From a virus: a stretch of DNA of 42,610 nucleotides. The position numbers and the translations under genes were made by a program. The notes beneath the pieces are model-generated. The model worked only from the letters and a program-made list of their open reading frames with translations. It ran no database searches and was not told the origin of the DNA. Below, in pieces: positions 4,258 through 33,033 of the stretch. Position 1 is the stretch's first letter. Each line of letters opens with the position of its first letter. Location: positions 1-42,610 of IMG/VR virus record IMGVR_UViG_3300027582_000006; one strand, 5' to 3'.

Positions 4258-5544
4258 ATGAACAACGAAAAAAACAAAAGGATCAGAATTGGGGAAAAGA
4301 CACCAAAAGAGACCGTAGTTGAAGAACTAGATGTAAAAATCGAAAACACAGAAATTGAAGAAGATGCTAATCAAGCATTTTATGATGAGAACGGGGAATT
4401 CATGTGGGATGCATATGAGTCTACTTGCCCGTCAAGAACAAGAAAACCAAATCCACACATTAAAACCAAAGACGGCGATAAAGTCTACTCTAGGGAATCT
4501 TATGCCCAAGAAATGTATGACATGCTTACTGCACATGATGCTAGTATTGGACAATTACTGACTGTAATTAATCCTGGTGAAATTCATGAAGGTAAAATTT
4601 ATGCAATTAATTCTGAGTTTATTAGCGTTGATATTGGTTACAGGGAATTGATCTACGTCAAGTATGATAAAGAACCTGCTGAAATTCAATCGCTAAAACC
4701 AGGTGATGACACTGCTGTACTAATTACACAATTGGGTAAAAACTCACATATTGTTGGTAGTATTAATGGTGGTGTTAAACACAAAGTGTTTATGGATCTT
4801 AGAGCTGCAGTTGAAGAAGGAAACACAGCGTGGGTCGGTACAGTTACAAATATGATTGAAAATGGAGGTTATATGGTAATGGTACAAGGCATAGAATGTT
4901 TTATGCCAGGATCTTTAGCTGGAATTAATAAACTACATGACTTTAGTTCTATTATTGGAACGGAAATGTATGTAGTTCCTGTTAGTTTCTCACCGGATAG
5001 AGGTACGTTAGTAGTTTCTCATAGAAAATATTTACAAGCTTTAATACCTGGAGAAATTGAAAACTTAAAACAAACACAAGGTGAAACAGTGACTGGAAAT
5101 GTTACGGGTACTGCAAAATACGGAGTATTTGTAGAATTTAATAAGTGTTTAACTGGTATGATTCATAATAATGATTTAGATGAAGATACATTAGCCAAGT
5201 TTAGAGCCAGAGAAATTAAACCAGGTGATGAAATTTCATTTATGGTTAAAGATATTATAAGTAATACTAAAATAACATTAACTCAAAAGGCAAATATAGT
5301 TGTTAATCCATGGGTAGATATTATTTCTAGATATCAAATTCCTTCTGTGGTACAAGCTACTGTTAAAACTAAAAAGGATTACGGATTATTTATCACAATA
5401 GAAGATGGAGTGACTGGTTTGCTACATGTTAGCGAATTAAGTGAAGAAGTAATGAGCGTATTTAAAGCTGGTGACCCAATCACGGTACAGATTACAAGAA
5501 TCGATGTTGATTCGATGAAAGTCTTTTTAAAGATGCCGCAATAA
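4258..5544 (+). CDS. Ribosomal protein S1-like RNA-binding protein (four S1 domains)
   Basis: 428 residues. Four S1-type OB domains can be read: about 104-168 (IHEGKIYAINSEFISVDIGY), 178-258 (WVGTVTNMIENGGYMVMVQG ... VVSHRKY), 268-345 (VTGNVTGTAKYGVFVEFNK ... KITLTQK) and 357-428 (VVQATVKTKKDYGLFITIED ... GLLHVSELSEE). The first 100 residues are acidic and unrelated to S1. Bacterial S1 holds mRNA on the 30S subunit and usually has four to six such domains. In a phage it could steer the host ribosome toward phage mRNAs; this fits the absence of Shine-Dalgarno sites before genes in this window. It has its own promoter-like motif and sits inside the baseplate cluster. Domain call strong; role inferred. 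Confidence 0.85.
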   Translation: MNNEKNKRIRIGEKTPKETVVEELDVKIENTEIEEDANQAFYDENGEFMWDAYESTCPSRTRKPNPHIKTKDGDKVYSRESYAQEMYDMLTAHDASIGQLLTVINPGEIHEGKIYAINSEFISVDIGYRELIYVKYDKEPAEIQSLKPGDDTAVLITQLGKNSHIVGSINGGVKHKVFMDLRAAVEEGNTAWVGTVTNMIENGGYMVMVQGIECFMPGSLAGINKLHDFSSIIGTEMYVVPVSFSPDRGTLVVSHRKYLQALIPGEIENLKQTQGETVTGNVTGTAKYGVFVEFNKCLTGMIHNNDLDEDTLAKFRAREIKPGDEISFMVKDIISNTKITLTQKANIVVNPWVDIISRYQIPSVVQATVKTKKDYGLFITIEDGVTGLLHVSELSEEVMSVFKAGDPITVQITRIDVDSMKVFLKMPQ

Positions 5545-5562
5545 CTATTGCAACGAGAGTGT

Positions 5563-5572
5563 GATATATAAT
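5563..5572 (+). promoter_or_regulatory. GATATATAAT motif, candidate late promoter for the amidoligase-like gene
   Basis: GATATATAAT ends 25 bases before the ATG at 5598, in a 53-base gap. Same motif family and similar spacing as at 4222 and 34744. Confidence 0.4.
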
Positions 5573-5597
5573 CAAACGGTAATATCATAATCTTAGT

Positions 5598-6908
5598 ATG
5601 CAAAAATTAACTATAGATTCTCCGAGAGAATCAATCCTAAACGCAGCACTCATGGGTGTTGAGTTTGAGTTCTATTCTAACCTCGATCTAGAAGTAACCA
5701 GAAAAGCTCTGGAAAAACTTCTAGATCGAAAGATTAGATTAGAAGATAAAGCCCATTCTGATTTTGTACCATCTGCTGAAGAATTTAAAATTGAGCCAGA
5801 TATGTCTGGTGGTAAAGGATTAGCAGAGTTGGTTACGGGACCTATCTCGTATAGAAATGCCAGATTAGTGGTTATTAAGATGTTAAAATGGATATCTGAA
5901 AATGGATATACTAATGATAGAGCATCAATTCATATAAATTTATCTTTCGATAAAAAGTATCTCGAAGATAAAGATCTTGTTTCTAAAATGAATGTTCTTA
6001 AATTTATTTTAGAATTTGATGAAAAACAAATCTATAAGTTTTTCCCTGAACGTGAAAATTCTACATATGCAAAGAGTGTAAAATGGGTAATGCCAAAAAT
6101 TGAAGCATTTCATTTTGATGGTAATCATATAGCGTCAAACAATTTTAAATTTGCTGACACAAAATATTATGGAATTAATTTTTCCAAAAAAGAAAAGAAT
6201 TACTTAGAATTTAGGTATATTGGTGGAGCTGATTATGAGAAAAAATCAGATGATATTCTTTATTTAACTGAAAGATTTTTAATGCAAATGTGGAATTCGT
6301 GTAATGACTCCAGGTTTAATGATGAGAATAAAATAGAATTACAGAGAATTTTAAATAAAAATAAACCTATCTCAGATATACTAAAGGACTACTCTAAGGT
6401 ATCTGAACATTATCCCGACATAACTATATTGGTAGATTTAGTAGATAACCCAGTCATTATTAAATTGCAATGGGAAAGGTTTAAGAATAGAGTAGTAGAT
6501 CTTATAGTAAATGGATCTATGACTGCCGGCTTAATTAATTATGATTCTAATTATGGAGCCACACAAATAAAAGATGGAAAGTTTCCAACTGTTTATCAAT
6601 TAGAAGATTTTGAATTTATAGATTGTGAAATAGCTGGGAATGTAACTAATTCTAGTTTTTATGGGTGTGAAATAACTGGGTCTGCTATCATGTATGGTAG
6701 TTTATACAAAGGCACTAAGGTAAAAGAATCAAAAGTAGAATCTAGTTATACACATGGTAGTTGTGAATTAATAAACTGTTATGTTGCGGGTAGAGATACT
6801 ATGTTTAAAGGTAAAATGATTGGAGGTATATTCAGAGAGGGTTTCAAAACAAAAGATGCCAGATTTGAAGATACTGAGATTGTTGTAAGTAAAAAAATAA
6901 GAGAATAA
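5598..6908 (+). CDS. Amidoligase-like protein with C-terminal beta-solenoid-like domain
   Basis: 436 residues. The N-terminal 280 residues show the signature of the amidoligase (COOH-NH2 ligase, glutamine-synthetase-like fold) family: GVEFEFY at 20-26, EPDMSGG at 66-72, AELVTGP at 76-82, SIHINLSF with His112 and Asn114, and YLEFRYIGG at 202-210. Known relatives are predicted to join an amine to a carboxyl group using ATP, sometimes on peptides or cell-wall material. From about 335 on, short repeated strands (FEFIDCEIAG, SSFYGCEITG, CELINCYVAG) suggest a right-handed beta-helix of pentapeptide-like character. It has its own promoter-like motif and the next gene starts 1 base after its stop. 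Substrate unknown: virion proteins, host peptidoglycan peptides or a small molecule are all possible. Confidence 0.72.
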   Translation: MQKLTIDSPRESILNAALMGVEFEFYSNLDLEVTRKALEKLLDRKIRLEDKAHSDFVPSAEEFKIEPDMSGGKGLAELVTGPISYRNARLVVIKMLKWISENGYTNDRASIHINLSFDKKYLEDKDLVSKMNVLKFILEFDEKQIYKFFPERENSTYAKSVKWVMPKIEAFHFDGNHIASNNFKFADTKYYGINFSKKEKNYLEFRYIGGADYEKKSDDILYLTERFLMQMWNSCNDSRFNDENKIELQRILNKNKPISDILKDYSKVSEHYPDITILVDLVDNPVIIKLQWERFKNRVVDLIVNGSMTAGLINYDSNYGATQIKDGKFPTVYQLEDFEFIDCEIAGNVTNSSFYGCEITGSAIMYGSLYKGTKVKESKVESSYTHGSCELINCYVAGRDTMFKGKMIGGIFREGFKTKDARFEDTEIVVSKKIRE

Positions 6909-19341: not shown

Positions 19342-22300
19342 ATGTCACAAATTACATTAAGAAATTCTAATACGGGAGCAGATCCAGCCAATGGAGCTAA
19401 TAGTTTATGTTTTAGTGGCCTAGATGGTATATTAGATTTATATTACACTGGTACATTAACTGCAAATGGTGGAAGTTCAGCCACAGGAACAATATTAAAT
19501 ACCGATAGTGCTAACCCCACTCCATGGGATGGACAGAATAAATTGTACATTGATGAGTTAGGTTGTAATATATTAAGAATATCCAGTGCCGGTGAAGTAA
19601 TGGAGTTATTTTCAAATGACACGGGTACAGGTGTGCCAGTGTGTACTCCTGTAATTACTGTAACAGGTCCTAATCTTATTGATGATCACTTAGAAGGTAC
19701 AGTATATACTGACCAAGGTGCTACTTTAGAGGAAGAGTGCCCATCTGGTGGTAGTATAACGGTAACAGGTGTACCCGATGGCATGACAGTTGGAAATTAT
19801 ACTATAACATATACATATCCTAACGCAGTAGATAAAATTAGAACTGTAAATGTGGTTCCAGCTCCGACACCAGTTCCACCAACAGCAACGCCTGTGCCAA
19901 CACCCGTGCCAGATACAACGCCTCCGGTAATATCGCTTACTGGAAATGCTATAATAACTATCGAGGTAGATCCATCTTTTACAGGTCCATATATTGAAGA
20001 TGGTGCTACGGCATTGGATGATGTAGATAATGACATTTCATCGCTCATAGTAATTGGAAATTTAAATAATGTAGATCCAACTAACGTTGGCGTTTACACG
20101 ATTACATATAATGTTAGTGATACCGCAGGAAATCCCGCAGTTGAAGTTACTAGAGAAATTCAAGTTGTAGATACTACAATACCTGTAATTGTACTTCAAG
20201 GGGATAATCCTTTAAACATTAATATTGGTGCTGCATATAGTGAACCTGGTTTCGCCGCAACTGATAATTATGACGACAATGCAACTCTTACTGGTGCTGT
20301 AGTTGTAGGAGGTGATACTGTGGATAACTCAACAGTTGGTCAATATAATATAACATATAATGTAACTGATTCAAGTAATAATAATGCAGTAGAGGTAATT
20401 CGCGTTGTTAATGTAAACGACACTTCAGCTCCAATTCCAGAAAACGAGACATATGATGTGGCTTGGAATGCAACGCTCGCTATTATATTAGAAGCTTCAG
20501 ATAACGTAGATTCTTCTGGTAGTTTAACATATACTATAGTAGATCAGCCAACTAAGGGACAATTAAATGCAGATGGAGGTGATCTCTTTACATATACTCA
20601 CACTGCAACAGTATACGGACAAGATTCTTTTACTTTTACAGCGACTGATTCAGAAGGGAACGTTTCTCTTCCTGGCACAATAACAATAAATCCAATAAAC
20701 AGTGCACCTGTTTTAACAGATCCTGGATCAATACAATTACAACAAAATTCAAGCGTTGTATTTAATGTTGGTATACAGGATGCTGATGGCGACGCAATAA
20801 CAATTATTGAAGATACTGCTGTTTCAAATGGTACAATTCAACTTATACAAACGTCTAGCAACTTAGAGGTAACATATACACCTAATCTTGGTCATTTTGG
20901 TGGAGACACATGGGTCATCATAGGTGAGGATAGTAAATCAGAGCAATCAATTCCACTAACTATTAACTTTGCTATTGAGGCCGTTCCGTATTTTGAAATG
21001 GATGCTTCATCATTTGGTAGTGATCCAGATGCCATGTGTATTGCACCTAAAACTACAAATGTTTACGGTGGAACAACATACGCAAATAATGTTAGTGAAT
21101 TATCAATAGGTGATACGGTTTATTATGATCAAAATTTAACTAATAAAGTTACAAGACCTAGTAATACTGCAATATACATAAAGGTTTCTGATTCTAGTAA
21201 AACCAGGGTATTAGGTATTAATGCCAATGGAGCAATTACAAGTATTAAAGAATGTGAAAGTAATGCTAATTCTGTATTTACACCAGTTAGATATGCAAGT
21301 AGTGAAAACGCATTCTGTGATAATGATGTACAAATCACAAATCTTTGGTATAATGATGATGGAAGTGGTTCAAAAACTTTACTTGAATTAGTAAACGGTT
21401 TTGTAAATGTATTTTCTAACGAATATGACTCAGATTTATTTACTGTTACTAATACAGTACAGAGTTCTATAGAAAGCGGAGTTTATGGAGATGTAGATAT
21501 TACTTTGAATAAATTTTATAAAAGATCATCTATTAATACATGGGGAGAAAACAATGAGGCAAACTCAGGTGGGTTTGATTTTGAGTGTGAGGAAGAAGTG
21601 CCACAGGAAACGTTTCCAATAACTGTTCAGTATTTACCAAACTTTGAGGATCCAAATTTAAATGAATTTTGTGCGGGTCAAATTGATAATGAACTCACAA
21701 ATGTTACTCTATGGTTTAGTAGAGATTTAGGTGCGTCAGCAATTAGTAACTTGTTAGAATTAGCACAGTCAAATATTGCCATATACAAATCTCAATTAGG
21801 TGCACAATCACAAGATCCTTTAGATTTATTTGAATCTAACATATTTGCACAAGGTGGTGACGGACATTTAGCGTGGGATAATCTTGGTGATGGTAAAAAT
21901 TTAAATTGGTATGGATATGATATTAATAATAGGCTAGTTGTTGGAACTGATATTGTAAGTTGGGGCTCGTGTTCAACATATAATGATAGACCTGAGATTA
22001 ATGGTCTAAATGATATAACAAGTGGTAATAATGATGTAAATATGTTTTACGCATTCTACTCTTATATGCCTGAAATAGAAGGACCCGAAGGTAGTGATCA
22101 AAATGATTCAGAAGATATATTTTGGCCAATATATGTAATAGATGGTCTACATACGATTAGTTCAGGAGACACTGGTAGTTATATAAAAGATTTTATAGAT
22201 AATTTAACGATAGGAAATGTAGTTACATCTAATAACACTGGAGAATGTTTGGCATATGTTTCTAATATTGTAGCCGAAGACATAGATGATGCTGTATTAT

Positions 22301-25300
22301 TACTAAAAAATAATTTATTAGATTCTAGGCAAAGGCCAGTTGTTTCTAGTGGAATTCAACTAGGTTTTGCTAGTGAAGAGGTTATTAAGGTTTATGAAGA
22401 TTCCGAAGCTACTAAATGTGTTCTCGGTAATGAAGCTGAAATTATTAGTACATACACGTTCCCGTTTGTTAGTGATTATGATTCTGTTAAAGCAGGTCCA
22501 AATTTTAACACAGAAACTAATTACAAGTTAGATAATGTCGCCAAGCCTTTATTAAGAACTAATCCTAAATTATCTGGAAATATAAAAATAGTTACAGATT
22601 CTAGTGGTACAGTATATTTAGAGAGTATAAATGCAAGTGAAAAACTAGCAGGAATAAAGTACAAAAAACATCCTATTAATCCAAATGGAAATTACGCTAA
22701 AGATGTGGCTTCTTTTTTTAGAGCCACTGGAACTCCATCTGATTTAATTTATTTAACTAAAAGGGCTAATTCTGATTTAACGGTTCATGATTCTTATAAT
22801 AAACAAGTAGAAGAGGAATATCAATATGGAACAACTTATAATTATTCTAAAAATTATGATGAAGGCTATAAAATGTTTGCACCTATATGGGCAGATAACA
22901 ATATGCCAAATAATTTTGTAATATTTAAAGTAAAAGATCCTAGTCTATTGGATTCTACTCATACAAATAGTAGTAATGCTGAAAGAATTTCCAGTATGTT
23001 GAAAAATGCTGAGATAATTAAATCATTTGATTTATCAAAAGAATCAGATTTAGGAAAATATATCAGAACTCATGTACAACAGGAAACTTTCCCTAAAGCA
23101 CCTTTAACTGTTTCGTTTAATAAAAATGAAAATACTAATTACAACGGTATAGATTTAAAATCGGGTGAATTAACAAGTAAGGGCGAATATATTTACAAGG
23201 ATTTTGTAGAAACTGACAAACCTCTTATTGAGGCTAATGATTTTATAACTGATGGTTTTAAAAGAAACGACATGTTATGTGCCAATTTATTGAATTTAGA
23301 ATTCTTATTCGATGATGATAGTGGAGCAGATTATAGTGTTAGTAGATATTTTGGATTATATGTTGACACAATAGATTCGGGTGTAGGTGAGATTAGTTCT
23401 ATTAATAATAACAATGTAATTACTTTTGGTAAAATTGATTCATTAGTTGATAGTACAAATCCAGTTACGGCAATCCCTAGTTATAAACAAATGTCTACAT
23501 CACCAACTTTAGGTTACGTGAAGATAAATGATATTTTCTATAAGATATCAAACACTGGTCTTTATGATCCATTTAAGTTAGAGGTTAAAGTAGACGGTGA
23601 TAATGAAATTATATCAAATACTATAGGTATTTCACATGTTGGTAGATCTGTCAATTTAACCAGAAATGAAGATCAAGGTTTTGATTTTGTTAAAATGACA
23701 ATAATAGGAACACCTGATGGTGCTGATAAAATAGCGGTATTAGAATCAAGAGAAGAATCATACAAGTTTACGTTTGTTAAACACACACCTGGAGAACTAA
23801 TTAATATTGAAATAGAAGACAATGGTGTGATATCTAATTTGTTTAATAATGATGTACAATTAGGTGTTGATTTTGAGACTACTGCAGCTAACATTATAAC
23901 TACACCAAAAGATGCAAACTTAAATATTACATTTGATTATAATACTAAATCTGTAATTATAACCGAAATCAAAACAAATTTAGGTGATCTTAACATGAGA
24001 ATCACGGGTGCTATTAGTTCTATTGTTAGGGTTGATCAACTTCAGTCTAATGTTAATTTACAAGACAGAACATATGTTTCTAATTACACATTACCAAAGG
24101 GTACTTATAAAGGACAGCAGTTTTCTAATCAAGGGACTACAGGTGATATAGCATCCGCGTTGGCATCCGCAATACATGATGATGATAGTGAATTAGATTC
24201 GTATAACGTAGGTTCAGACATTTTTGTAAAAACAAAGATACCTGGTTATAGATTAAATCAACATGTTATATTGGTTAACAAAGAGAACGTTACTGATTTT
24301 ATCAAAGTAGAAAATGAAGATTTAAATAATATACTAAATCTTAAAGAAAGTAGTAATTCTATAAAAGAAAATTGGAGATCTCATTATTTAAGTGGTGGTA
24401 ACACACGTAACAGATCGGTGTTTGTTGATAATACTACTTTAAGTGAAATATCTACTGGAGATTATTTAGAAACCAATTATGAGGGTATTTACAATAAGGT
24501 ATTAGATATTGTTGAAGATATTGATTCTATTGATTCTACTAAATCTAAAATAATATTATCTTTAGATTCAGATATTAATGATGGAGAAACAAGAGTTTTT
24601 AATAATAATATAGTACATGTTGGTTTATTCTCAGCATATAATCTATATGATATGGATTTTGATTTTTATGACACTTCAAATTCTGATCTAAAAGAGTTAT
24701 CTTTAGAAACTAGAGAGAATATAAATTACGAACCATATGAAAATGCTATATTAAACATAGATCCAATTACTTCTGAGTTTAATTCAGTATTAGCTGCGAG
24801 TGACATATTTGATGATAATTATGCATTAGAGCCGATTGATTATTTTTCTAATTTATCCGGAATATTATCTGAAGAAACTATAGATGAAGAGTTATCTGAA
24901 AATATTACAAGTGAATTTGATAGACTAAAAGAAAACGAGTTAAAAGAATTTGCTACTAAATCTAGAGTAGTTCCTAATATTAACAAATGGGTTTTAAAAG
25001 ATTCATTAAATATTAAAGAACAGCCATATTATTTGAATATTAATGAGGCCTTTGGTAGAACTAATTTCTCCCCTGATTTAAGTGCGGTCGGTCGTAGTAA
25101 AAACGATATGACACATGAATGGTTTTATATGGATAAAAATCCAAAGTATTTAAGATATGATGAATTAAACCAAGGATTTTCATATGTAAACTTCATTGAA
25201 GATTTTGAATTAACATCTGATTTATTTAAAAGTACTAAAAACAATTACTTTGATAAATTTATGATTTCTGAAGGATTTGAAAAAAATCTAAATAAAGAAG

Positions 25301-27417
25301 ATCTCGATTCTATATTTCAAAAATTCGGAGAGTACACAGAGGGTTACTTAAATCCTGATGATATTAATAATACATTCTTTAAAACAGAATTAAAGAAGAA
25401 GTATACATTGATAGATGGCGGTGATACAAATGCGTTTGCTAACACTATATTTAAGGGTTTAAAGGTTGTATTAAAAAATAGAAAGGAATTTGCCAATAAA
25501 ACTGCACTTGATTTTGTTAAAAGTAGTGAGTTTAATGGTTATAAATTTAGTGTTTTATTAAAGACAAATACAGATACTGAAACCAATGATATAGAGTTTG
25601 AGGTTATTCAAAATAAGAAGTTTAAATTTGTAATATTTTTTATCACAATGAATCTTAGTGATTATTGGGTAAAAGGAAATATGAATAGAAAATTGTTATA
25701 TGAACTAAATCATAAAATAGTATATGATCATACTAATGAAGATTATATTTATGCTAATACGTCATTTGACGGTGCATTGAATTGGAATCAAGCTGATTTT
25801 TCAGGGGATTTACCATATACAATAGATGGCATTACACATATTGATGGAAGTATACCTAAGTTTGATGATCAAATTTTATTGGGAGAGAATGGATTATATG
25901 GTGAGGTTTTAATGGATTTATATCCTGAAACACCTGGAAATACAATTTATAAGTTTTCAATTTATACAGTAGAAGATGATAATTCAATTAAAGTACAAGG
26001 GAAACCTGTAAACGTAAATGATCCATATGATGTTTTAGATGTTGAGTTTTTACCTAACTATTTACAAAGTAAAATAAAGTATTACTATAAGGACGGAGGT
26101 ACAAACATACACAAAGCTCTTCTAGAAAAGTTATCTATTAACAGTGTTGCTGAAATGATAAACTTAAATGATGATAGTGTTAAGTATACTACGGTAGAAG
26201 AAAATGGAGAAATAAATGCAAATAGATTTACTATTAATTTTGAAGATGGAAATGAAATTGTAAAATATGCAACACTTTCTGTAGAAGAAGATAATGATAA
26301 ACCGAAAAGTTTTAAATTGTTTAAAGGTATTATTGGTTATAATTTAATTAAATCAAGTGAGGCTGAATATTATCCATTCTTAATAAGACACAGTGGATCA
26401 TATACTGTAGGATTTAAACCAGTTGTTACATTTACTGACATGTATGCTCATTTTAAATCTAATAGAGTACAAGCCACTGTAGATAACAGAGAGTCTGTAT
26501 TTGAGTCATTTTTATACAAACATGCCATGAATAACTCATATGAATTAAAAACTGCCAAATCATATTATAATAGATATAATAGATGTGGTACTACGTTCAA
26601 TGTAGGTCTTATTATAGATAATGATATACATGATTCTAATTGGGGCATTATAAAAAATCATTTTTATCATAAAGTAAATGAAATAAATCCAAACGGTATT
26701 ACCAAACTCTCAGAATCTTCTGATAAATTACCATTGTACCCTCGTATTAATGAAATCGCTATTTCTAAAAAAGATGTAAACGTATTTAGATCTTCATGGG
26801 ATGCAAATTATTATACTAGAGCATTATCAGGTGGAAAATCTGAAGATATACCAGGTACATTAGATAATACAGAGGAAAAATCTTATCTTGGATCTACTAC
26901 GATGAAGATTAAAAACGAGTATGATGTTACTTCTTTTACATATGAAAATGTAGATAGTCAAGAAGATTTAGATTTTATTTTAAAGAATGGTATAAATAAG
27001 GCTGAAGTAACTGTATTTGAGGATGAAAAACAAATAGTTGCAGATTTTTATATTACTGATGCTGCTACTAGATTACTAAGAAATGACGGAGTGTTTGATG
27101 TAATAAATAAGTATGTGAATGCTGAAGATTCAGCTGGGGATAAAACAACTTTGATCGATGACGCAAATTTCTATATTAATAATAATATTATTGAAAAATT
27201 TGTAGTAGATTCTATATCGTTATATACTAGAGACTTTAAAGGAAGACCTTCATCAATAATAAATATAGGTGAAGATATTCGTGCTGGTGGGTTTACACCA
27301 GACAACAATTTTAGATTTAAATCTCATAAACAAAAGCCTATGAATTTTAGATTGATATATAATAAAAGATTAGGATATTCTTACGACATTAAACCTATGA
27401 TAAAAATAAAGTCATAA
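19342..27417 (+). CDS. Giant Ig-repeat virion protein (2691 aa), probable long fibre/adhesin
   Basis: The longest gene here. Visible domains: a Cys-containing beta segment at about 20-100; an Ig-like domain of the DUF5011 kind at about 110-170 (NLIDDHLEGTVYTDQGATLE, VGNYTITYTY); a Thr/Pro linker at about 172-195 (TPVPPTATPVPTPVP); two more DUF5011-like domains to about 360 (VGVYTITYNVSDTAGNPAVE, VGQYNITYNVTDSSNN); two cadherin/tandem-95-like domains to about 542. Cys-anchored modules follow (DPDAMCIAP, SENAFCDNDV, NLNEFCAGQI). The C-terminal 1700 residues are unrecognised and rich in Asn, Asp, Ile and Lys, like other large tail proteins here. Ig repeats in phage virions usually bind surface sugars. 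The next gene starts 1 base after its stop. Adhesin role inferred. Confidence 0.62.
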   Translation: MSQITLRNSNTGADPANGANSLCFSGLDGILDLYYTGTLTANGGSSATGTILNTDSANPTPWDGQNKLYIDELGCNILRISSAGEVMELFSNDTGTGVPVCTPVITVTGPNLIDDHLEGTVYTDQGATLEEECPSGGSITVTGVPDGMTVGNYTITYTYPNAVDKIRTVNVVPAPTPVPPTATPVPTPVPDTTPPVISLTGNAIITIEVDPSFTGPYIEDGATALDDVDNDISSLIVIGNLNNVDPTNVGVYTITYNVSDTAGNPAVEVTREIQVVDTTIPVIVLQGDNPLNINIGAAYSEPGFAATDNYDDNATLTGAVVVGGDTVDNSTVGQYNITYNVTDSSNNNAVEVIRVVNVNDTSAPIPENETYDVAWNATLAIILEASDNVDSSGSLTYTIVDQPTKGQLNADGGDLFTYTHTATVYGQDSFTFTATDSEGNVSLPGTITINPINSAPVLTDPGSIQLQQNSSVVFNVGIQDADGDAITIIEDTAVSNGTIQLIQTSSNLEVTYTPNLGHFGGDTWVIIGEDSKSEQSIPLTINFAIEAVPYFEMDASSFGSDPDAMCIAPKTTNVYGGTTYANNVSELSIGDTVYYDQNLTNKVTRPSNTAIYIKVSDSSKTRVLGINANGAITSIKECESNANSVFTPVRYASSENAFCDNDVQITNLWYNDDGSGSKTLLELVNGFVNVFSNEYDSDLFTVTNTVQSSIESGVYGDVDITLNKFYKRSSINTWGENNEANSGGFDFECEEEVPQETFPITVQYLPNFEDPNLNEFCAGQIDNELTNVTLWFSRDLGASAISNLLELAQSNIAIYKSQLGAQSQDPLDLFESNIFAQGGDGHLAWDNLGDGKNLNWYGYDINNRLVVGTDIVSWGSCSTYNDRPEINGLNDITSGNNDVNMFYAFYSYMPEIEGPEGSDQNDSEDIFWPIYVIDGLHTISSGDTGSYIKDFIDNLTIGNVVTSNNTGECLAYVSNIVAEDIDDAVLLLKNNLLDSRQRPVVSSGIQLGFASEEVIKVYEDSEATKCVLGNEAEIISTYTFPFVSDYDSVKAGPNFNTETNYKLDNVAKPLLRTNPKLSGNIKIVTDSSGTVYLESINASEKLAGIKYKKHPINPNGNYAKDVASFFRATGTPSDLIYLTKRANSDLTVHDSYNKQVEEEYQYGTTYNYSKNYDEGYKMFAPIWADNNMPNNFVIFKVKDPSLLDSTHTNSSNAERISSMLKNAEIIKSFDLSKESDLGKYIRTHVQQETFPKAPLTVSFNKNENTNYNGIDLKSGELTSKGEYIYKDFVETDKPLIEANDFITDGFKRNDMLCANLLNLEFLFDDDSGADYSVSRYFGLYVDTIDSGVGEISSINNNNVITFGKIDSLVDSTNPVTAIPSYKQMSTSPTLGYVKINDIFYKISNTGLYDPFKLEVKVDGDNEIISNTIGISHVGRSVNLTRNEDQGFDFVKMTIIGTPDGADKIAVLESREESYKFTFVKHTPGELINIEIEDNGVISNLFNNDVQLGVDFETTAANIITTPKDANLNITFDYNTKSVIITEIKTNLGDLNMRITGAISSIVRVDQLQSNVNLQDRTYVSNYTLPKGTYKGQQFSNQGTTGDIASALASAIHDDDSELDSYNVGSDIFVKTKIPGYRLNQHVILVNKENVTDFIKVENEDLNNILNLKESSNSIKENWRSHYLSGGNTRNRSVFVDNTTLSEISTGDYLETNYEGIYNKVLDIVEDIDSIDSTKSKIILSLDSDINDGETRVFNNNIVHVGLFSAYNLYDMDFDFYDTSNSDLKELSLETRENINYEPYENAILNIDPITSEFNSVLAASDIFDDNYALEPIDYFSNLSGILSEETIDEELSENITSEFDRLKENELKEFATKSRVVPNINKWVLKDSLNIKEQPYYLNINEAFGRTNFSPDLSAVGRSKNDMTHEWFYMDKNPKYLRYDELNQGFSYVNFIEDFELTSDLFKSTKNNYFDKFMISEGFEKNLNKEDLDSIFQKFGEYTEGYLNPDDINNTFFKTELKKKYTLIDGGDTNAFANTIFKGLKVVLKNRKEFANKTALDFVKSSEFNGYKFSVLLKTNTDTETNDIEFEVIQNKKFKFVIFFITMNLSDYWVKGNMNRKLLYELNHKIVYDHTNEDYIYANTSFDGALNWNQADFSGDLPYTIDGITHIDGSIPKFDDQILLGENGLYGEVLMDLYPETPGNTIYKFSIYTVEDDNSIKVQGKPVNVNDPYDVLDVEFLPNYLQSKIKYYYKDGGTNIHKALLEKLSINSVAEMINLNDDSVKYTTVEENGEINANRFTINFEDGNEIVKYATLSVEEDNDKPKSFKLFKGIIGYNLIKSSEAEYYPFLIRHSGSYTVGFKPVVTFTDMYAHFKSNRVQATVDNRESVFESFLYKHAMNNSYELKTAKSYYNRYNRCGTTFNVGLIIDNDIHDSNWGIIKNHFYHKVNEINPNGITKLSESSDKLPLYPRINEIAISKKDVNVFRSSWDANYYTRALSGGKSEDIPGTLDNTEEKSYLGSTTMKIKNEYDVTSFTYENVDSQEDLDFILKNGINKAEVTVFEDEKQIVADFYITDAATRLLRNDGVFDVINKYVNAEDSAGDKTTLIDDANFYINNNIIEKFVVDSISLYTRDFKGRPSSIINIGEDIRAGGFTPDNNFRFKSHKQKPMNFRLIYNKRLGYSYDIKPMIKIKS

Positions 27418-27418
27418 A

Positions 27419-28759
27419 ATGGCAATTAACATTCAAGAGATACTACACCCGAGTGATTCGAACTCTATTAAGTTTGAAAAAATCAACTATAACTTTGACC
27501 AAATATTGGCAAATGGAGGTGGACCTGTCGGTCCCAAGGGACAAAAAGGAGATCAAGGTCAAGTTGGTTCTACTGGACAAAAAGGAGAAAAAGGTGAGAT
27601 TGGTAATACTGGTTTAAAAGGAGATTCAGGGGCAACTGATAGTCCATGGTATAAAGTTGAATTAGATGCTAATTCAGATGGCCAAAATGAGGTTACTATT
27701 CTAAAACCAAAAAGAGGAACTGATTTACAACTTCCTATAATTTGGTTAGGGGATTCTACATTTGAAGAAGATTCTAATGACGGTGATATTTCAACAAATG
27801 CAAGATTAACAATAGCAACCGATGGTGTTTTTGCAAATTATCTAAAATTATTTCATGACTCTGTTCATGGTTTAGTATTAACTAGTGAAGAAAGTGGAGC
27901 TTATAAAAGATTTGCTTTTAAAAATAATTTTGGTAGCAGTAACATAGAGTTCGGCGCAACTACTAATAAGATATCTTTAGTTGCTACAAGTTCTAATGCT
28001 TATTTTCAAGGTGAAGGCGTAACAATTAAAACAACTGGATCAAATAACCTTAGTTTAGAAACTTCTGGTAATGGTATATTGGATGTAGATATAAATGCTG
28101 AATTTAAAGGTTACGTAAGGTTGCCTTATGGTGGAACTGGACAAAGACCATTAAATCCACAAGTAGGTATGATAAGATTTAATAGTGATTTAGATATCGC
28201 TGAAGCTTATTATTACAACGGTGGTTCACCAGAGTGGAGAGAATTGTGTACAGATTGTGGTAGCGGAGTAGCAGATAGTATTGGAATTATAGGTGGAAAC
28301 ATTGATGCATATGCTGATGGAAGTCCAGTAGTAACTGACACTATTTCTATTGGAGGTGGAAACATTAATGCAAATAGTGACGGGTCACCAAGTTCAAGTG
28401 TGCCTAATCCGACTGCAACACCAAATCCAACGGCACAACCAACCCCAGCCCCAACTAGTGGATCGGGTAGTGGTTCGGGACCAAATCCAACTGCAACGCC
28501 AACTAGTGGATCAGGCAGTGGATCAGGGCCAAATCCAACTGCAACGCCAACTAGTGGATCAGGCAGTGGATCAGGGCCAAATCCAACTGCAACGCCAACT
28601 AGTGGTGGTGGTTCAGGAACAGGATCAGGAACAGGTTCAGGTGGTGATAACGAAATTATCGAAGATGATGGTGAAAGCTTAGGCGGAGGAGGAACTAGTT
28701 CGGGAACTGGAAGCGGAGGAACTAGCTCTGGAACAGGTTCGGGAACTAATAGTTATTAA
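27419..28759 (+). CDS. Collagen-like tail-fibre protein with Pro/Thr-Gly/Ser repeat tail
   Basis: 446 residues. Residues 1-32 are an anchor-like segment similar to that of the 13021 gene. Residues 35-73 hold 13 uninterrupted Gly-X-Y triplets (GPKGQKGDQGQVGSTGQKGE and on), a collagen-like triple-helix stalk. A beta domain follows, then LPYGGTGQRPLNPQVGMIRF with AYYYNGGSPEWREL, a widely shared phage-fibre motif that marks the end of a fibre head. The last 110 residues are low complexity: PNPTATPTSGSGSGSG repeats and then Gly/Thr/Ser-rich runs. It probably forms trimers on the baseplate or the long fibre. Confident as a fibre; receptor unknown. Confidence 0.78.
   Translation: MAINIQEILHPSDSNSIKFEKINYNFDQILANGGGPVGPKGQKGDQGQVGSTGQKGEKGEIGNTGLKGDSGATDSPWYKVELDANSDGQNEVTILKPKRGTDLQLPIIWLGDSTFEEDSNDGDISTNARLTIATDGVFANYLKLFHDSVHGLVLTSEESGAYKRFAFKNNFGSSNIEFGATTNKISLVATSSNAYFQGEGVTIKTTGSNNLSLETSGNGILDVDINAEFKGYVRLPYGGTGQRPLNPQVGMIRFNSDLDIAEAYYYNGGSPEWRELCTDCGSGVADSIGIIGGNIDAYADGSPVVTDTISIGGGNINANSDGSPSSSVPNPTATPNPTAQPTPAPTSGSGSGSGPNPTATPTSGSGSGSGPNPTATPTSGSGSGSGPNPTATPTSGGGSGTGSGTGSGGDNEIIEDDGESLGGGGTSSGTGSGGTSSGTGSGTNSY
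28481..28606 (+). repeat. 48-bp tandem repeat coding PNPTATPTSGSGSGSG
   Basis: Units begin at 28481, 28529 and 28577. The first two are identical over 48 bases, and the third diverges after about 30 bases. A degenerate copy precedes them. The near-perfect DNA identity points to recent slippage or recombination, so copy number may vary between isolates. Confidence 0.85.
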
Positions 28760-28770
28760 AATAAAAACAA

Positions 28771-28778
28771 GATAAATA
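28771..28778 (+). promoter_or_regulatory. GATAAATA motif before the BACON-Hint gene, candidate late-promoter box
   Basis: GATAAATA ends 19 bases before the ATG at 28798 in a 38-base AT-rich gap. This spacing is the best of the GATAAATA sites for a short-leader transcript. Confidence 0.38.
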
Positions 28779-28797
28779 TAAAAACATAAATAATAAA

Positions 28798-30162
28798 ATG
28801 AGCTACGATTATACAAGAACTGTCTCAATTACACCGGTAAGTACATCCTATTCATGGGATGCTACTCCTAATTGGATTACTATAACAAGAGTTTCTGTTA
28901 ACTCCGATGACTGGACAATTACACTTCAAGAAAACACAGGTGATGCACGTAGTGCGACACTTACTGTTAGACATGCTAATTCAACAACGGTTGACACTAT
29001 AACTGTGAATCAAGCTGAGGGTGTAGGTGTGCCTGATCCAACTGCAACGCCAGTTCCGACTTCGGTTCCGACTGCAACGCCAGCTCCGACGAACGTACCA
29101 AATCCAACGCCAGTTCCACCAACTGCAACGCCAGTTCCACCAACTGCAACGCCAGTTCCAACTGTTCAACCAACACCTGGTCCAAACCCAACGTTTACAT
29201 TTGCAACTAATACAACGTCTGGTAATAGATTTATATTTGCACCTAGTAGTCTTAATACTGATGTATCATATACAATCGTAGCAGATGGTAACACTAGTCC
29301 AGCTGCGCCAAGTAATTTTAGTACCAATGGTGTTAGTGGTTCAAATCAAACTGGACCAACTGTAACAAACAATTCGAACGTATTTACTGGAACTTATAGG
29401 TTTACAAAAACTTTTTCACCAATTGCTGATCTGAATGTTAACTGTACAGTAAGTGCACCATATGGCACATCAGATACTTGGTATTGTACGCTTGAAGCAG
29501 ATTCAGGTCCTAAAAATACAGCTACGCCAAGTCCAACTAATAGTTCAGGCTCTGGTTCAGGTTCGGGACCAACTGCAACACCAATTCCTAATCCAACTGC
29601 AACACCAGTTCCATCTTCAACGCCATCGTATAGTGGCGGAGGCGGCGGAGGCGGATGTCACGTAGCTGGAGAATTACTTACGTTAGCTAATGGTGAAACT
29701 AAATTAGTAGAAGATGTAGTTGTAGGAGATAACTTATTATCTGTTAATTTTGATGGATTTAGTTTAGATGGAGAGTGGAAATCATGGAAAAGAAGAGAAG
29801 AAACTCTTGGATCTGTGTATACAAACACGACTGTTACTAATGTTACTGTTTTAGAATTCGATAAATATTATGACTTCAATAATGGATTATTAAAAATCAC
29901 AGAAGAACATCCTGTCCTAGTAAAAGATACTGTAGGAGATATTTACTTCAAACAAGTAAGAGATATTGTTAATTCTGATTGGCTCTTAAATGAAGACAAT
30001 GAATGGGTAGATATTACATCTATAGAATTGATAGCGGTACCTGAGAGATTTACAACATATTCCTTTAACGTAGAAGAAGCTGATGTTTATTTTGCAAATG
30101 GTATAATAGTACACAATGTTGAGGATCTTGAAGAGGATCGCGAAAAACAATTTATGCAATAA
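28798..30162 (+). CDS. BACON domain - Pro/Thr linker - beta domain - Hint (intein-like) domain fibre protein
   Basis: 454 residues. Residues about 8-72 resemble a BACON domain (YSWDATPNWITITRVSVN ... SATLTVRHANSTTVDTITVN), a sugar- or surface-binding fold typical of Bacteroidota and their phages. A Thr/Pro linker (76-135), a beta domain (136-237, TFTFATNTTSGNRFIFAPSS) and a second linker follow. Seven glycines (280-286) precede Cys287, which starts a Hint domain: CHVAGELLTLANGETKLVED and VVVGDNLL (block A), TEEHPVLV with Thr368 and His371 (block B), and YSFNVEEADVYFANGIIVHN ending at His439-Asn440 (blocks F/G). It is 154 residues, too short for a homing endonuclease. The residue after Asn440 is Val, so ordinary splicing is not expected; cleavage at either end is. 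Domain calls strong, function inferred. Confidence 0.85.
   Translation: MSYDYTRTVSITPVSTSYSWDATPNWITITRVSVNSDDWTITLQENTGDARSATLTVRHANSTTVDTITVNQAEGVGVPDPTATPVPTSVPTATPAPTNVPNPTPVPPTATPVPPTATPVPTVQPTPGPNPTFTFATNTTSGNRFIFAPSSLNTDVSYTIVADGNTSPAAPSNFSTNGVSGSNQTGPTVTNNSNVFTGTYRFTKTFSPIADLNVNCTVSAPYGTSDTWYCTLEADSGPKNTATPSPTNSSGSGSGSGPTATPIPNPTATPVPSSTPSYSGGGGGGGCHVAGELLTLANGETKLVEDVVVGDNLLSVNFDGFSLDGEWKSWKRREETLGSVYTNTTVTNVTVLEFDKYYDFNNGLLKITEEHPVLVKDTVGDIYFKQVRDIVNSDWLLNEDNEWVDITSIELIAVPERFTTYSFNVEEADVYFANGIIVHNVEDLEEDREKQFMQ
29110..29160 (+). repeat. 21-bp tandem repeat coding PVPPTAT
   Basis: Units start at 29110 and 29131 and a partial unit at 29152. CCAACTGCAACGCCA or close variants occur in this gene and in the 27419 gene, making these loci possible partners for recombination. 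Confidence 0.75.
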
Positions 30163-30966
30163 ATGAGTATTATAAATAAAATTATTAGTAATAAGAACAC
30201 CCTCACTTTTGTGTTGGGTGCTCTTTTTGTTTTAATGTTTTTAAAACAATGTGACAGTATATCTTCTTTGAAACAAGACGTTAAATTAGCACAAGAAGAT
30301 GCTGGTAGACAGCTTAATAATTTTAAAGCGGCTCAAGATTCTGTTACTATATTAAGAAATGATAATGGTGATCAGCTTGCTCAGATTAGATCTTATGAAT
30401 TTGATTTATCAAATATGGAATCTAGCCAAACTAAGTTGACTAAAAAATATAAGAAAGTGCTAGCACTTAATGATGACTTAAAAGAAGTTAACTCATTAAT
30501 TTCGGCTAACCTAGAAATTACAGATAGTTTAGATGTAACTACTACAACTGAGACCATTGACACAACAACTACTAAAGTTACGTTTGCATCATCAGAAGAT
30601 TTTGGTAATGGTAACTCTAGAAAACTAACAGGGTTTTCTACCTTTAAATATGAATTTGAAAAATTTAAAGTATTGGAAACTAAGTTTGAATTGACACAAA
30701 CTTTAAGTTTAATGGCTGCAATTGAGAACGTAAATGGAGCCGATAGATTAAAGTTATCGACAAGCTATCCTGGATTAGAGATTAAAGATATTGAAAATAT
30801 AAACTTAGTTAATAGCAGATTAAATAGAAAAGACCAAAAGAAATCTAGATGGCTAGTTGGTTTTGGTGTTGGATATGGAATTAATTTAAACAATAACCAA
30901 GTGATTAGTACTGGACCATCTATTGGTGTAGGACTTTATTGGTCACCTAAATTTTTACAATTTTAA
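30163..30966 (+). CDS. Membrane-anchored coiled-coil protein, spanin-like candidate
   Basis: 267 residues, starting directly after the previous stop. Residues about 12-30 form one transmembrane helix (TLTFVLGALFVLMFLKQC). Residues about 33-120 are a long charged helix or coiled coil. A Thr-rich stretch (about 127-140, TTTTETIDTTTTKV) leads to a beta-rich end with SRWLVGFGVGYGINLN and GPSIGVGLYWSPKF, resembling outer-membrane beta strands. One N-terminal membrane helix, a periplasmic coiled coil and an outer-membrane-like end fit a one-protein spanin linking the two membranes in lysis. No lysis gene is visible nearby, so this is a hypothesis. A terminator-like hairpin lies inside its start. 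Confidence 0.55.
   Translation: MSIINKIISNKNTLTFVLGALFVLMFLKQCDSISSLKQDVKLAQEDAGRQLNNFKAAQDSVTILRNDNGDQLAQIRSYEFDLSNMESSQTKLTKKYKKVLALNDDLKEVNSLISANLEITDSLDVTTTTETIDTTTTKVTFASSEDFGNGNSRKLTGFSTFKYEFEKFKVLETKFELTQTLSLMAAIENVNGADRLKLSTSYPGLEIKDIENINLVNSRLNRKDQKKSRWLVGFGVGYGINLNNNQVISTGPSIGVGLYWSPKFLQF
30195..30233 (+). terminator. Intrinsic terminator-like hairpin within the start of the 30163 gene
   Basis: Outer stem GAACACCC (30195-30202) pairs with GGGTGCTC (30216-30223), with one A-C mismatch; inner stem CAC/GTG closes a TTTT loop. TTTTTGTTTT follows. In such an AT-rich genome this GC-rich stem followed by a T run is striking. It would reduce transcription beyond the Hint-fibre gene, but it also encodes part of a membrane helix. 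Confidence 0.5.
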
Positions 30967-30969
30967 AAC

Positions 30970-33033
30970 ATGGCTCAATCAAGCAGATATTTTTACTTAG
31001 ATTCTGATATTTTATTAGAATTTATTTATCATGACCAAGGAAATCCTTCTAAATATCAAATAGAAGTTGACGATAATGGTAGTGAGGTAAAATTCTTAGA
31101 CACAGTAAAAGGAATTACTTCAGAAAAAAGACACTTAATTAATGAATTAGGTAGTGCTGTTGTAAACTTTGATGTAACAGAAACTTCAGGATATTTATCA
31201 GTTGAAAACTTTGCATCAAGAACTTTACTTTTACAAAACGGAAAAACTTATAAATTTAATTTAAGTTTATTAACAGATCCTAGTTTATTTCAAATCAGTG
31301 GAGCTTTAGGGATATACTCTTATTCTGATGTAACTAAGATTGCTCAATTTACACCTAATCAAAATGGGATAATTGAATATTCTTACGAAGGTTTAATTGG
31401 AGGTAAAATAATAGTAGACACAAGAGCAAATCCATTATTTGCAAATCCAGATGAAAATACAGGAAACGATATTAATCAAACTATTGGAAGATATCACGCT
31501 ATAAAATCTGGTAATACTGGTACTAAATATGCACTACTAGGCTATGATTCGACAGGAGATTATGAAATGTTTAATTACGTTAATAATAACGTTGAGTGGG
31601 CCGGTGGAAATGAAACTGATCTTTTAAACAACCAAACTAATGCAACTGCAAATATTAATTATATCAAATACGATAGTATTAGGTTACATCTTAGAAGTGG
31701 GTATAGTTTTGCTGCCAGAGGATATGAAGGGTTTTTATTCGAAATAGCAACTAAAAGAAATTCAGGTGTCAGGAACAATTTAACACAATTAGTATACTTA
31801 AATACTAGTAACTATGAATACGCTAATCCTAAACCTTTTATTTTAGGTGAGACATTATATAGTAAATTTATTGATATTAAAATTCCTACTCTTGTAGAAC
31901 AGAATGAAGAGTTTAATGATTTATTTTATGGAGATGGAAGTGTAGGTTCTAGTGATTTAGATCCAACTTCTAATTATGAAATGACATTTAAATTAATAGA
32001 TACATTACAAACTATTAATGGATTTGATTATTTCCTTACAGGTGAAGAGAATAGTTTTACTATTTCTAGAGAAGATGAATTTCAAGATTTTACTGTGGTA
32101 GTAGAAGATGCTACTGATGGTGATTACTTTAAGATATACGGAGAAAAAGATAATTCTATAGGAGCCTTTGAAGCGTACATACTAAATCAAATAACTAAGA
32201 CTTCAGATGATATAGTTGTAATGTTTGATGTTGATGTTTTCGAAACTATAGGAAGTGTTGATATTAAAACATTCCAAACATCGTATACACAATATGAAGA
32301 TTTCAATACACCTATTGTTTTTAGACCAGTGATTATTAATAGTAATACTGCTTCTAGTTTTTCAGTAGATGTAACTATGAGAATTTGGAATCAAACTGAT
32401 AATACACAAATAGTAAAAAGAGCTAGTTTAACTTTAACACAGGCTGCAAAGTATGGTAAAAGATTAAACAAGTTAAAAATTAATTCCCCAAATCAGTTAA
32501 CTGAAGTTTATAATGTTTTACCTGAATTATCTTCTAATAAAATTATAGAAGGAATATTCACAGACAACTTGCCCAAAAGTATAAAATATGTTCCTACATT
32601 TATAGAAAGACACAATGTTATTGCATCAAAATCAAAAATAGTGTTTGATTCTTCTAATGAAAATATAATGACACAGAGTATTACTGAGGTAGATACTTCT
32701 GAGTTTGTGAATGAAACTAAACTAAATATTGATATACCTCCATTTACTTCATATTATAAATTTGTGATTGCTAAAAGAAAAGGTGATGATGTAGAATTTA
32801 TTTCTTTTACAAATGCAGAAAATGTAATATTAACATTCGGTGATGGAAAACAAAAATTAAAATTTAATCATATATCAAACAAGGATATTGATATGGGTGA
32901 AGGTGAAGTTTTGTTTAAAATAAGTGAAGCTAATGCTAATACTATTAGAGGTATGAAAAACAATAAGTTTTATATTAGTGTTAATAATGGCATTGACGAG
33001 AATATGATCATGTCTGGTAAATTTAAGAAATAA
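30970..33033 (+). CDS. Virion structural protein, unknown
   Basis: 687 residues, starting 3 bases after the previous stop. Beta-rich, with few Cys and many aromatic residues (GYLSVENFASRTLLLQNGKT, then YKFNLSLLTDP). No enzyme motif seen. The C-terminal part (FTNAENVILTFGDGKQKLKF, FYISVNNGIDENMIMSG) resembles the jelly-roll or sandwich folds of large tail proteins. It is followed 9 bases later by a tube-like protein, so it may belong to the tail or baseplate periphery. Confidence 0.55.
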   Translation: MAQSSRYFYLDSDILLEFIYHDQGNPSKYQIEVDDNGSEVKFLDTVKGITSEKRHLINELGSAVVNFDVTETSGYLSVENFASRTLLLQNGKTYKFNLSLLTDPSLFQISGALGIYSYSDVTKIAQFTPNQNGIIEYSYEGLIGGKIIVDTRANPLFANPDENTGNDINQTIGRYHAIKSGNTGTKYALLGYDSTGDYEMFNYVNNNVEWAGGNETDLLNNQTNATANINYIKYDSIRLHLRSGYSFAARGYEGFLFEIATKRNSGVRNNLTQLVYLNTSNYEYANPKPFILGETLYSKFIDIKIPTLVEQNEEFNDLFYGDGSVGSSDLDPTSNYEMTFKLIDTLQTINGFDYFLTGEENSFTISREDEFQDFTVVVEDATDGDYFKIYGEKDNSIGAFEAYILNQITKTSDDIVVMFDVDVFETIGSVDIKTFQTSYTQYEDFNTPIVFRPVIINSNTASSFSVDVTMRIWNQTDNTQIVKRASLTLTQAAKYGKRLNKLKINSPNQLTEVYNVLPELSSNKIIEGIFTDNLPKSIKYVPTFIERHNVIASKSKIVFDSSNENIMTQSITEVDTSEFVNETKLNIDIPPFTSYYKFVIAKRKGDDVEFISFTNAENVILTFGDGKQKLKFNHISNKDIDMGEGEVLFKISEANANTIRGMKNNKFYISVNNGIDENMIMSGKFKK

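Follow-up and report, generated by a model that had tools for sequence, protein, structure and literature searches.

The window, meaning the whole stretch of DNA analysed, is a 42,610-base virus record in which a gene at 28798–30162 encodes a protein of 454 residues, with a stop codon after residue 454; the opposite strand is stop-rich over the same interval in the one frame translated. This gene and the features described below within 27419–33033 lie on the forward strand. From its N terminus, the protein consists of a BACON domain, a linker, a beta-rich domain, a second linker, seven glycines, a Hint domain and a 14-residue C-terminal flank (C-flank). The BACON domain (residues 20–73; 28855–29016), which a preliminary description of this DNA had already recognized, scores 27.3 bits against Pfam PF13004, above the cut-off of 25. 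The beta-rich stretch (approximately residues 131–235; 29188–29502) is flanked by TATP-rich linkers and was modelled with low confidence; in the full-length AlphaFold2 model (pLDDT 58), the fold of this middle domain was not identified and PDB matches outside the Hint domain were weak.

The seven glycines (residues 280–286; 29635–29655) abut Cys287 (29656–29658), the predicted thioester nucleophile, which is conserved in aligned relatives. Profile, model and structure matches define the Hint domain, of the intein-like (BIL) type, as the 154 residues from Cys287 to Asn440 (29656–30117). It contains block A (CHVAGELLTL), block B (T368-E-E-H371-P372; 29899–29913), the block F acid Asp429 (30082–30084) and the C-terminal cleavage dipeptide His439-Asn440 (30112–30117). 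The C-flank (residues 441–454, VEDLEEDREKQFMQ; 30118–30159) starts with Val441 and holds a single lysine, Lys450 (30145–30147), which may serve as an acceptor in the chemistry considered below. The glycines, Cys287, blocks A and B, His439-Asn440 and Val441 are as first described, and their coordinates within 28798–30162 were confirmed.

The product is probably a fibre, judging by the position of its gene and by the RefSeq label of its relatives, virion structural protein; the GenBank copies are labelled hypothetical protein. A neighbouring fibre gene (27419–28759) has collagen-like Gly-x-y repeats, recognized by eye, and weak matches to PHROG tail fibres; a Pfam search with its protein returned no match. 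Before it, at 19342–27417, lies the gene for a putative fibre of 2,691 residues with LapB-like and tandem-95-like repeats, both under the NCBI cut-offs. Downstream of the fibre slot, a small gene (30163–30966) encodes a spanin-like protein with an N-terminal hydrophobic segment (phrog_89, E = 0.0025, a weak match), which also gave weak matches to an Rz-like spanin and DUF6808; its homologue sits immediately downstream of the slot among the loci listed. The next gene (30970–33033), for a conserved tail-locus protein of 687 residues, served as the anchor for comparing the slot between phages. The best matches of the helicase-like and baseplate-like proteins of the window are to uncultured jumbo phages, and the named matches include Prevotella Lak and Tenacibaculum phages, among others; the host is likely to belong to the Bacteroidota.

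Identity of the C-terminal domain

The Pfam Intein_splicing model gives the window Hint 21.3 bits, under its cut-off of 35.8. An alignment of the window Hint with 24 relatives (25 sequences; A2) was used as a profile against solved chains, of which the C. thermocellum BIL (2lwy) came first at E = 8e-15, followed by the Tetrahymena BIL2 (6tmm/6y75) at E = 2e-14, with inteins ranking after. The AlphaFold2 model of the domain alone (pLDDT 86.7) has a Hint fold. Foldseek with this model reached E = 1e-10 and ranked BIL2 at the top and then the C. thermocellum BIL. DALI-like comparison gave a Z score of 20.9 to the Tetrahymena BUBL1 BIL2 (6y75; rmsd 1.5 over 140 residues), 19.0 to 2lwy and 17–18 to inteins and Hedgehog. 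Structure prediction and profile search thus both return the Hint family proposed in the preliminary description, and a chance motif is excluded by the profile E value, the model confidence, the Foldseek E value and the top Z score. We regard it as close to certain that the C-terminal domain is a Hint/BIL domain. Among predicted viral structures, the three best matches have lengths of 506, 1,304 and 153, those of the three Hint proteins of Phage NCTB, and further matches are to proteins of uncultured caudoviruses that bear the name Hint or fibronectin type III.

The domain was initially read as a BIL-type Hint followed by a non-nucleophilic residue, and this reading holds: all catalytic positions are present and the residue after Asn440 (+1) is Val441. 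The combination makes thioester chemistry at the Gly-Cys bond plausible. Of the traits of A-type BILs, the protein has the Hint fold, Cys at position 1, the Thr-x-x-His of block B and the terminal His-Asn, together with Val441 where a Cys, Ser or Thr would otherwise be conserved, and an endonuclease-free domain (141–156 residues among the relatives) in a variable fibre slot. A-type BILs are described in variable, non-conserved regions of bacterial proteins, without an endonuclease, in the available parts of two accounts (PMC7765530, PMC5874633).

The Hint module at the fibre slot and beyond

To compare the slot, we collected IMG/VR relatives of the anchor gene, found on 143 stretches, kept the best 80 and compared the 62 loci with at least 5 kb upstream (L numbers are our locus handles). 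The BACON gene carries a Hint in 22 of the 62 (10 recognized by pattern and 12 by eye from the BACON start) and the adjoining collagen-like fibre in 4 (L062, L063, L084 and L089); no Hint was found in the other 36 anchored loci. This split indicates that the module is not a fixed part of the locus and that either of two adjacent fibre genes can bear it. At the anchored tail locus it forms the end of its protein wherever it occurs.

The Hint-less fibres at these loci, including homologues of the 27419–28759 product, often end in a glycine run and a few residues (GGGGGFVR, GGGGSPSS), an end that resembles what a Hint might leave behind. The Hint-less fibre of L095 ends with a stretch that resembles, by eye, the beta-rich middle of the window protein.

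Beyond this locus, the window Hint has matches in 24 of 50,697 annotated phage records, of which 22 are Erwinia phages and the others Phage NCTB and an uncultured jumbo phage. Taxonomy was checked for two of the Erwinia records; both are Alexandravirus, and in them the Hint ends a collagen-like protein with the RefSeq label virion structural protein. Other family members additionally match Dickeya phage AD1 and Erwinia phage Yoloswag, and the window Hint matches PHROG 38766 at E = 1e-9. In one scan of IMG/VR, relatives were encoded on 103 stretches, of which 80 loci were kept. The upstream partners vary and include BACON, collagen-like fibres that begin MAINIQEIL or MNIRIKELF, (INT)n repeats, small tail proteins and a 1,152-residue Thr/Ser repeat protein. 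On the evidence of these gene sequences, the module is common to many phage tail proteins, not peculiar to one fibre.

Several relatives depart from the arrangement in the window. The L013–L023 group has about 100 fibronectin-like residues after the Hint instead of a short tail. Two or three Hint-like domains occur in tandem in L219:1123–3474 and L223:1084–4176, and in L223 a Peptidase_S74-like chaperone stretch follows the Hints, with a weak score (20.7 against a cut-off of 22 bits). One phage has two closely spaced Hint-ended genes (L215:2425–3528 and 4551–6125), with the flanks VHSK and KGASSEP. The 88-kb contig IMGVR_UViG_3300003937_000081 encodes a BACON-Hint protein that includes that of the window letter for letter, as well as a second Hint-ended protein, the one of 1,152 residues (L194:2048–5503, reverse strand), which consists mostly of TTWSTSKSTTTTFNT-like repeats and whose C-flank (KKDALCSHEDKC...) holds several cysteines. 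L196 and L197 (uncultured jumbo phage LR756508) gave partial Hint matches within large replication- or packaging-like open reading frames (ORFs), which are probably ordinary inteins.

Of the 30 plasmid matches listed, from a total of 46, most are annotated as polymorphic-toxin HINT or RHS proteins. Two short peptide patterns, run against 84,980 prokaryote species genomes, gave one weak match, in an archaeal MAG; such patterns miss divergent relatives, so we do not take this result to mean that bacteria lack the family.

Catalytic residues and the C-flank lysine

The first Cys, the block B His, the block F Asp and the final His-Asn are present in all 25 aligned domains. In a wider set of 75 distinct domains, the block B His is kept in 72, the block B Thr in 70 and the block F Asp in 72; the first Cys and His-Asn occur in 75 of 75, a count that is partly by construction, because both were demanded by the selection in order to define the flank. 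The first set of 148 ORFs included five without a Cys in the range of the script and one without His-Asn, and all six are listed as incomplete profile matches. The block B His is missing from L012, L216 and a small NCTB gene in L011, and these domains are possibly non-catalytic members of the family. The NCTB gene (L011:2744–3205) encodes a nearly free-standing Hint of 153 residues and adjoins the gene of a Hint-ended tail protein. The block F Asp is missing from L219, L223 and L221, the last of which resembles a true intein. L221 aside, each of these domains still has a lysine close to the Asn; the lysine can thus persist where part of the active site has been lost.

On the N-terminal side, the three glycines before the Cys are invariant in 12 aligned proteins, that of the window included. 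The residue at −1 is Gly in 16 of 24 families and Pro in 4 of 28 clusters; Pro at this position slows thioester formation. The Hint is under purifying selection, with dN/dS of 0.11–0.19 in nine of ten pairs and 0.36 in the tenth, values that are rough because dS exceeds 1 in four of the pairs, and in 8 of 10 pairs its conservation exceeds that of the upstream part. The domains of the relatives have no insert.

The missing residues in 3 of 75 domains at each of two positions and the sub-threshold Intein_splicing score could be taken to mark a decayed intein, or a Hint fold that persists as a structural knob. Such a non-catalytic remnant is, however, hard to reconcile with catalytic residues that are invariant in the 25 aligned domains, with the low dN/dS and with a single C-flank rule (below) that holds across unrelated upstream proteins; moreover, 154 residues leave no space for an endonuclease, and no conserved gene is interrupted. 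We consider a remnant highly improbable, and the window Hint is likely to be catalytically active.

The most telling feature of the family appears to be a lysine in the C-flank. We defined a short C-flank as one of at most 30 residues after the Asn (mean 10), requiring the first Cys and His-Asn but not a lysine. Every complete short C-flank examined, 54 of 54 distinct sequences, contains one. In the first data set this applies to all cluster representatives with a short flank, at 60% (17/17), 70% (26/26) and 90% (37/37) identity; against the 26 at 70%, 2,000 draws from the ends of other proteins of the same loci averaged 13.4 and never exceeded 23. With later scans included, a lysine is present in every one of the 24 families at 60% and of the 33 at 70%. 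Under a length-matched null from 486 other ORFs, the chance of this is 10^-9.7 and 10^-12.7, respectively, figures that overstate independence because the families share ancestry.

The rule was predicted ahead of the final three scans and held in all eight new short flanks of closed His-Asn ORFs (L214, two in L215, L216, L219, L222, L229 and L231), of which L229 and L231 are 81–83% relatives of the previously seen L194. L222 is among the eight because its Cys is visible by eye, although it was dropped from the family count. In all, 19 ORFs were dropped before the count of 24 families, because they had no locatable Cys or His-Asn, were cut by the end of the locus or were of odd length. Of those with readable short flanks, L041, L051, L147 and L222 have a lysine, whereas L209, whose ORF is truncated where the locus ends and whose +1 residue is Cys, has none. 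Long C-flanks, in 5 of 38 clusters at 70%, were excluded; four of the five have a lysine at +1 or +2, and the fifth, L221, has Cys at +1 and resembles a true intein.

Among the 19 residue types tested in 26 families, none is in such excess as lysine (z = 5.5), and no other is universal. Glu (z = 3.3), Ala (3.7) and Val (3.1) are also enriched, Arg is not clearly so, and Ser and Tyr are depleted. Because Glu, Ala and Val are enriched as well, a tail that is generally charged and includes a positive residue could be proposed in place of a lysine rule, as a weaker alternative; none of 24 families has an Arg-only tail, which speaks against it, although not decisively. Cys is absent from the flanks of these 26 families and present in the later-found L194 family, in which the flank cysteines could provide an alternative nucleophile. 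The position of the lysine shifts among relatives of the window protein (10 in the window, 5 and 10 in L005, and 6 in L007). The shortest flank is a lone Lys (L219), others being KH, KVD and VHSK; in a tail of one residue, the lysine could also react by way of its alpha-amine.

The distribution of this lysine bears on how the domain might act. If the thioester were simply hydrolysed and Asn440 cyclized, the Hint and its tail would be lost, and the mature fibre would end in poly-glycine; the Hint would then be a self-shedding aid to folding or solubility, or a timer. BILs are described as yielding mainly cleaved products in the available text of one source (PMC7664689), several Hint-less neighbouring fibres have Gly-rich tails, and the weak Peptidase_S74-like chaperone stretch after the Hints of L223 points the same way. 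But such shedding leaves the universal lysine of the short flanks unexplained and gives no reason for the flank to be retained, and most Hint-less fibre ends are without lysine: in the same loci, a lysine lies within the last ten residues in only 6 of 34 clusters. We consider self-shedding doubtful, if a serious alternative.

The residue at +1 suggests another route. Of the 24 short-flank families, 22 have Lys, Ala, Val, Leu, Ile, Tyr or Phe at this position and two have Thr. An A-type BIL with Ala at +1 reportedly splices through an amine (Dassa, in 2004, is said to have described it), and the phage flanks, with Ala, Val, Lys, Leu and others at +1, are similar to that case. Cyclization of the Asn would free the tail, whose alpha-amine would attack the thioester and ligate the tail head-to-tail to the fibre. 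An alternative splicing mechanism is indeed mentioned for some A-type BILs in the available portion of one paper (PMC5874633). For an alpha-amine, however, any residue would suffice, so the lysine rule is unexplained, and the Hint-less fibre ends of the same loci are unlike the charged lysine tails. Splicing of this type seems improbable.

A possible self-processing route and its relation to known systems

The lysine-bearing peptide after the Hint suggests a role for the domain in forming or breaking a covalent bond at the protein end during maturation. The closest precedent is BIL2, which is reported, in the part of the source available, to form without ATP an isopeptide bond between the side chain of a lysine and the C terminus of the upstream protein; the following domain, its authors speculate, places one of its lysines at the N-terminal junction (PMC8616854). 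The phage family shares with BIL2 the fold, the active site, mostly a Gly at −1 and a lysine near the Asn, and it is from these shared features that we derive an account with a thioester at Gly286-Cys287 and transfer to Lys450. Cys287 would attack the carbonyl of Gly286 to form the thioester, as the fold, the conserved Cys, the Thr and His of block B and the Asp of block F would allow. The thioester would then pass to an amine, likeliest the side chain of Lys450, to give a Gly-Lys isopeptide, as in BIL2. Cyclization of Asn440, to which the conserved His-Asn points, would sever the Hint from the C-flank and release it. The Gly-rich end of the fibre would then carry a lysine-containing peptide, as a cap or as a link, and the Hint would have served as an expendable catalyst. 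The order of these steps is our inference.

That an A-type BIL at the end of a phage tail fibre or adhesin processes its own protein in this way, by forming a thioester and transferring it to Lys450, with release of the Hint, is in our judgement about evenly poised between right and wrong. Weighing against this account are the three domains that lack the block B His, the three that lack the block F Asp, the Pro at −1 in 4 of 28 clusters and the charged-tail alternative. For the lysine side chain as the main acceptor, a choice to which the flanks would point, our confidence falls a little short of even. More tentatively still, many tailed phages may use such a BIL as an ATP-free isopeptide ligase that moves the fibre C terminus, usually a glycine, onto a lysine of its own tail or that of a neighbouring chain, so that the fibre end is welded or capped, and then excises itself.

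The preliminary description had also suggested that the thioester is open to attack by an amine, which is plausible and for which BIL2 offers a precedent in the passages available (PMC8616854). That description went on to place the amine on a neighbouring virion or host-surface molecule, which would make the reaction one of adhesion or cross-linking by a covalent bond in trans. For BIL2, conjugation of the upstream protein to other substrates has been reported (PMC8616854, in part), and some phages encode two or more Hint-ended proteins. Yet the sequences lend it no support: the conserved amine belongs to the protein's own tail, Hints would be expected to react soon after folding in the cell, before adsorption, and no partner was found; we think a trans reaction distinctly improbable. 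The earlier expectation that the domain would cleave rather than splice fares less well. It is too narrow: the lack of a nucleophile at +1 need not confine a BIL to cleavage, because BIL2 is reported to form isopeptides and some A-type BILs are described as splicing (PMC5874633, available text). A-type BILs have also been said, in a source seen in part, to be unable to ligate their flanks (PMC7765530), in contrast to that account of alternative splicing (PMC5874633).

That such a step on a phage fibre would be new was anticipated in the preliminary description, and we found no description of a Hint-driven step on phage fibres in one open-access library, among the matches listed. The available portions of the phage papers record ordinary inteins in enzymes or terminases, or none, and those of two BIL-related papers hold nothing on phages. 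To our knowledge, capsid cross-links are a main case of covalent self-processing of phage virion proteins. The other main case is that of the S74-type autoproteases of tail fibres, according to the accessible part of one source (PMC7824862). A Hint-driven step on a module that moves between adjacent fibre genes would add a new way in which the receptor-binding proteins of many phages mature, and, if active, such domains would offer a compact means of attaching a protein C terminus to a lysine without ATP.

Of the known systems, the BUBL1 BIL2 of Tetrahymena thermophila (6y75, 6tmm) is the closest in fold and among the closest in sequence to the phage Hint. It comes from a ciliate and has ubiquitin-like domains on both sides, whereas the window Hint has poly-glycine, TATP linkers and BACON upstream and 14 residues downstream. 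A lysine follows the Hint in the window protein, as in all 24 short-flank families, and may act as the nucleophile that an isopeptide of the BIL2 type would need. Zinc is reported to activate BIL2 in the passages available (PMC8616854), whereas the activity of the window Hint is a prediction. The C. thermocellum BIL (2lwy), similar by profile and fold, occurs in a bacterial protein. BILs are described, in the part of the source available, as lacking a nucleophile at +1 (PMC7664689), and the Val of the window protein conforms to this. The Hint proteins of Erwinia and Dickeya jumbo phages (Alexandravirus; PHROG 38766) and of Phage NCTB combine a collagen-like tail protein, a Hint and a short lysine tail; they differ from the window protein in their N-terminal domains and are annotated, without a function, as hypothetical, virion structural, tail or intein domain proteins.

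More distant Hint proteins share the fold and differ in context. Class 1 inteins (Ssp DnaB, gp41-1 and others) share the fold and active site with the window Hint. Inteins interrupt conserved proteins and require Cys, Ser or Thr at +1; a class 1 intein in an interrupted gene was rejected here on account of the Val at +1, the unconserved 14-residue tail and the lack of a conserved downstream extein. A unit of the PT-HINT (polymorphic toxin) type was rejected as well, as the tail has 14 residues and no toxin domain follows the Hint. The Hedgehog Hog domain (1at0; Z = 17.5 to the window Hint) is a C-terminal Hint by which the protein upstream is passed to a nucleophile; it needs no Asn and uses cholesterol by way of a sterol-recognition region after the Hint. 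A Hog domain was rejected because His-Asn is conserved in the phage family and only 14 residues follow in the window protein. In all the features of sequence and structure tested, the domain is a BIL; its setting is on phage fibres, where the literature matches listed did not describe it, and the C-flank lysine is a new regularity.
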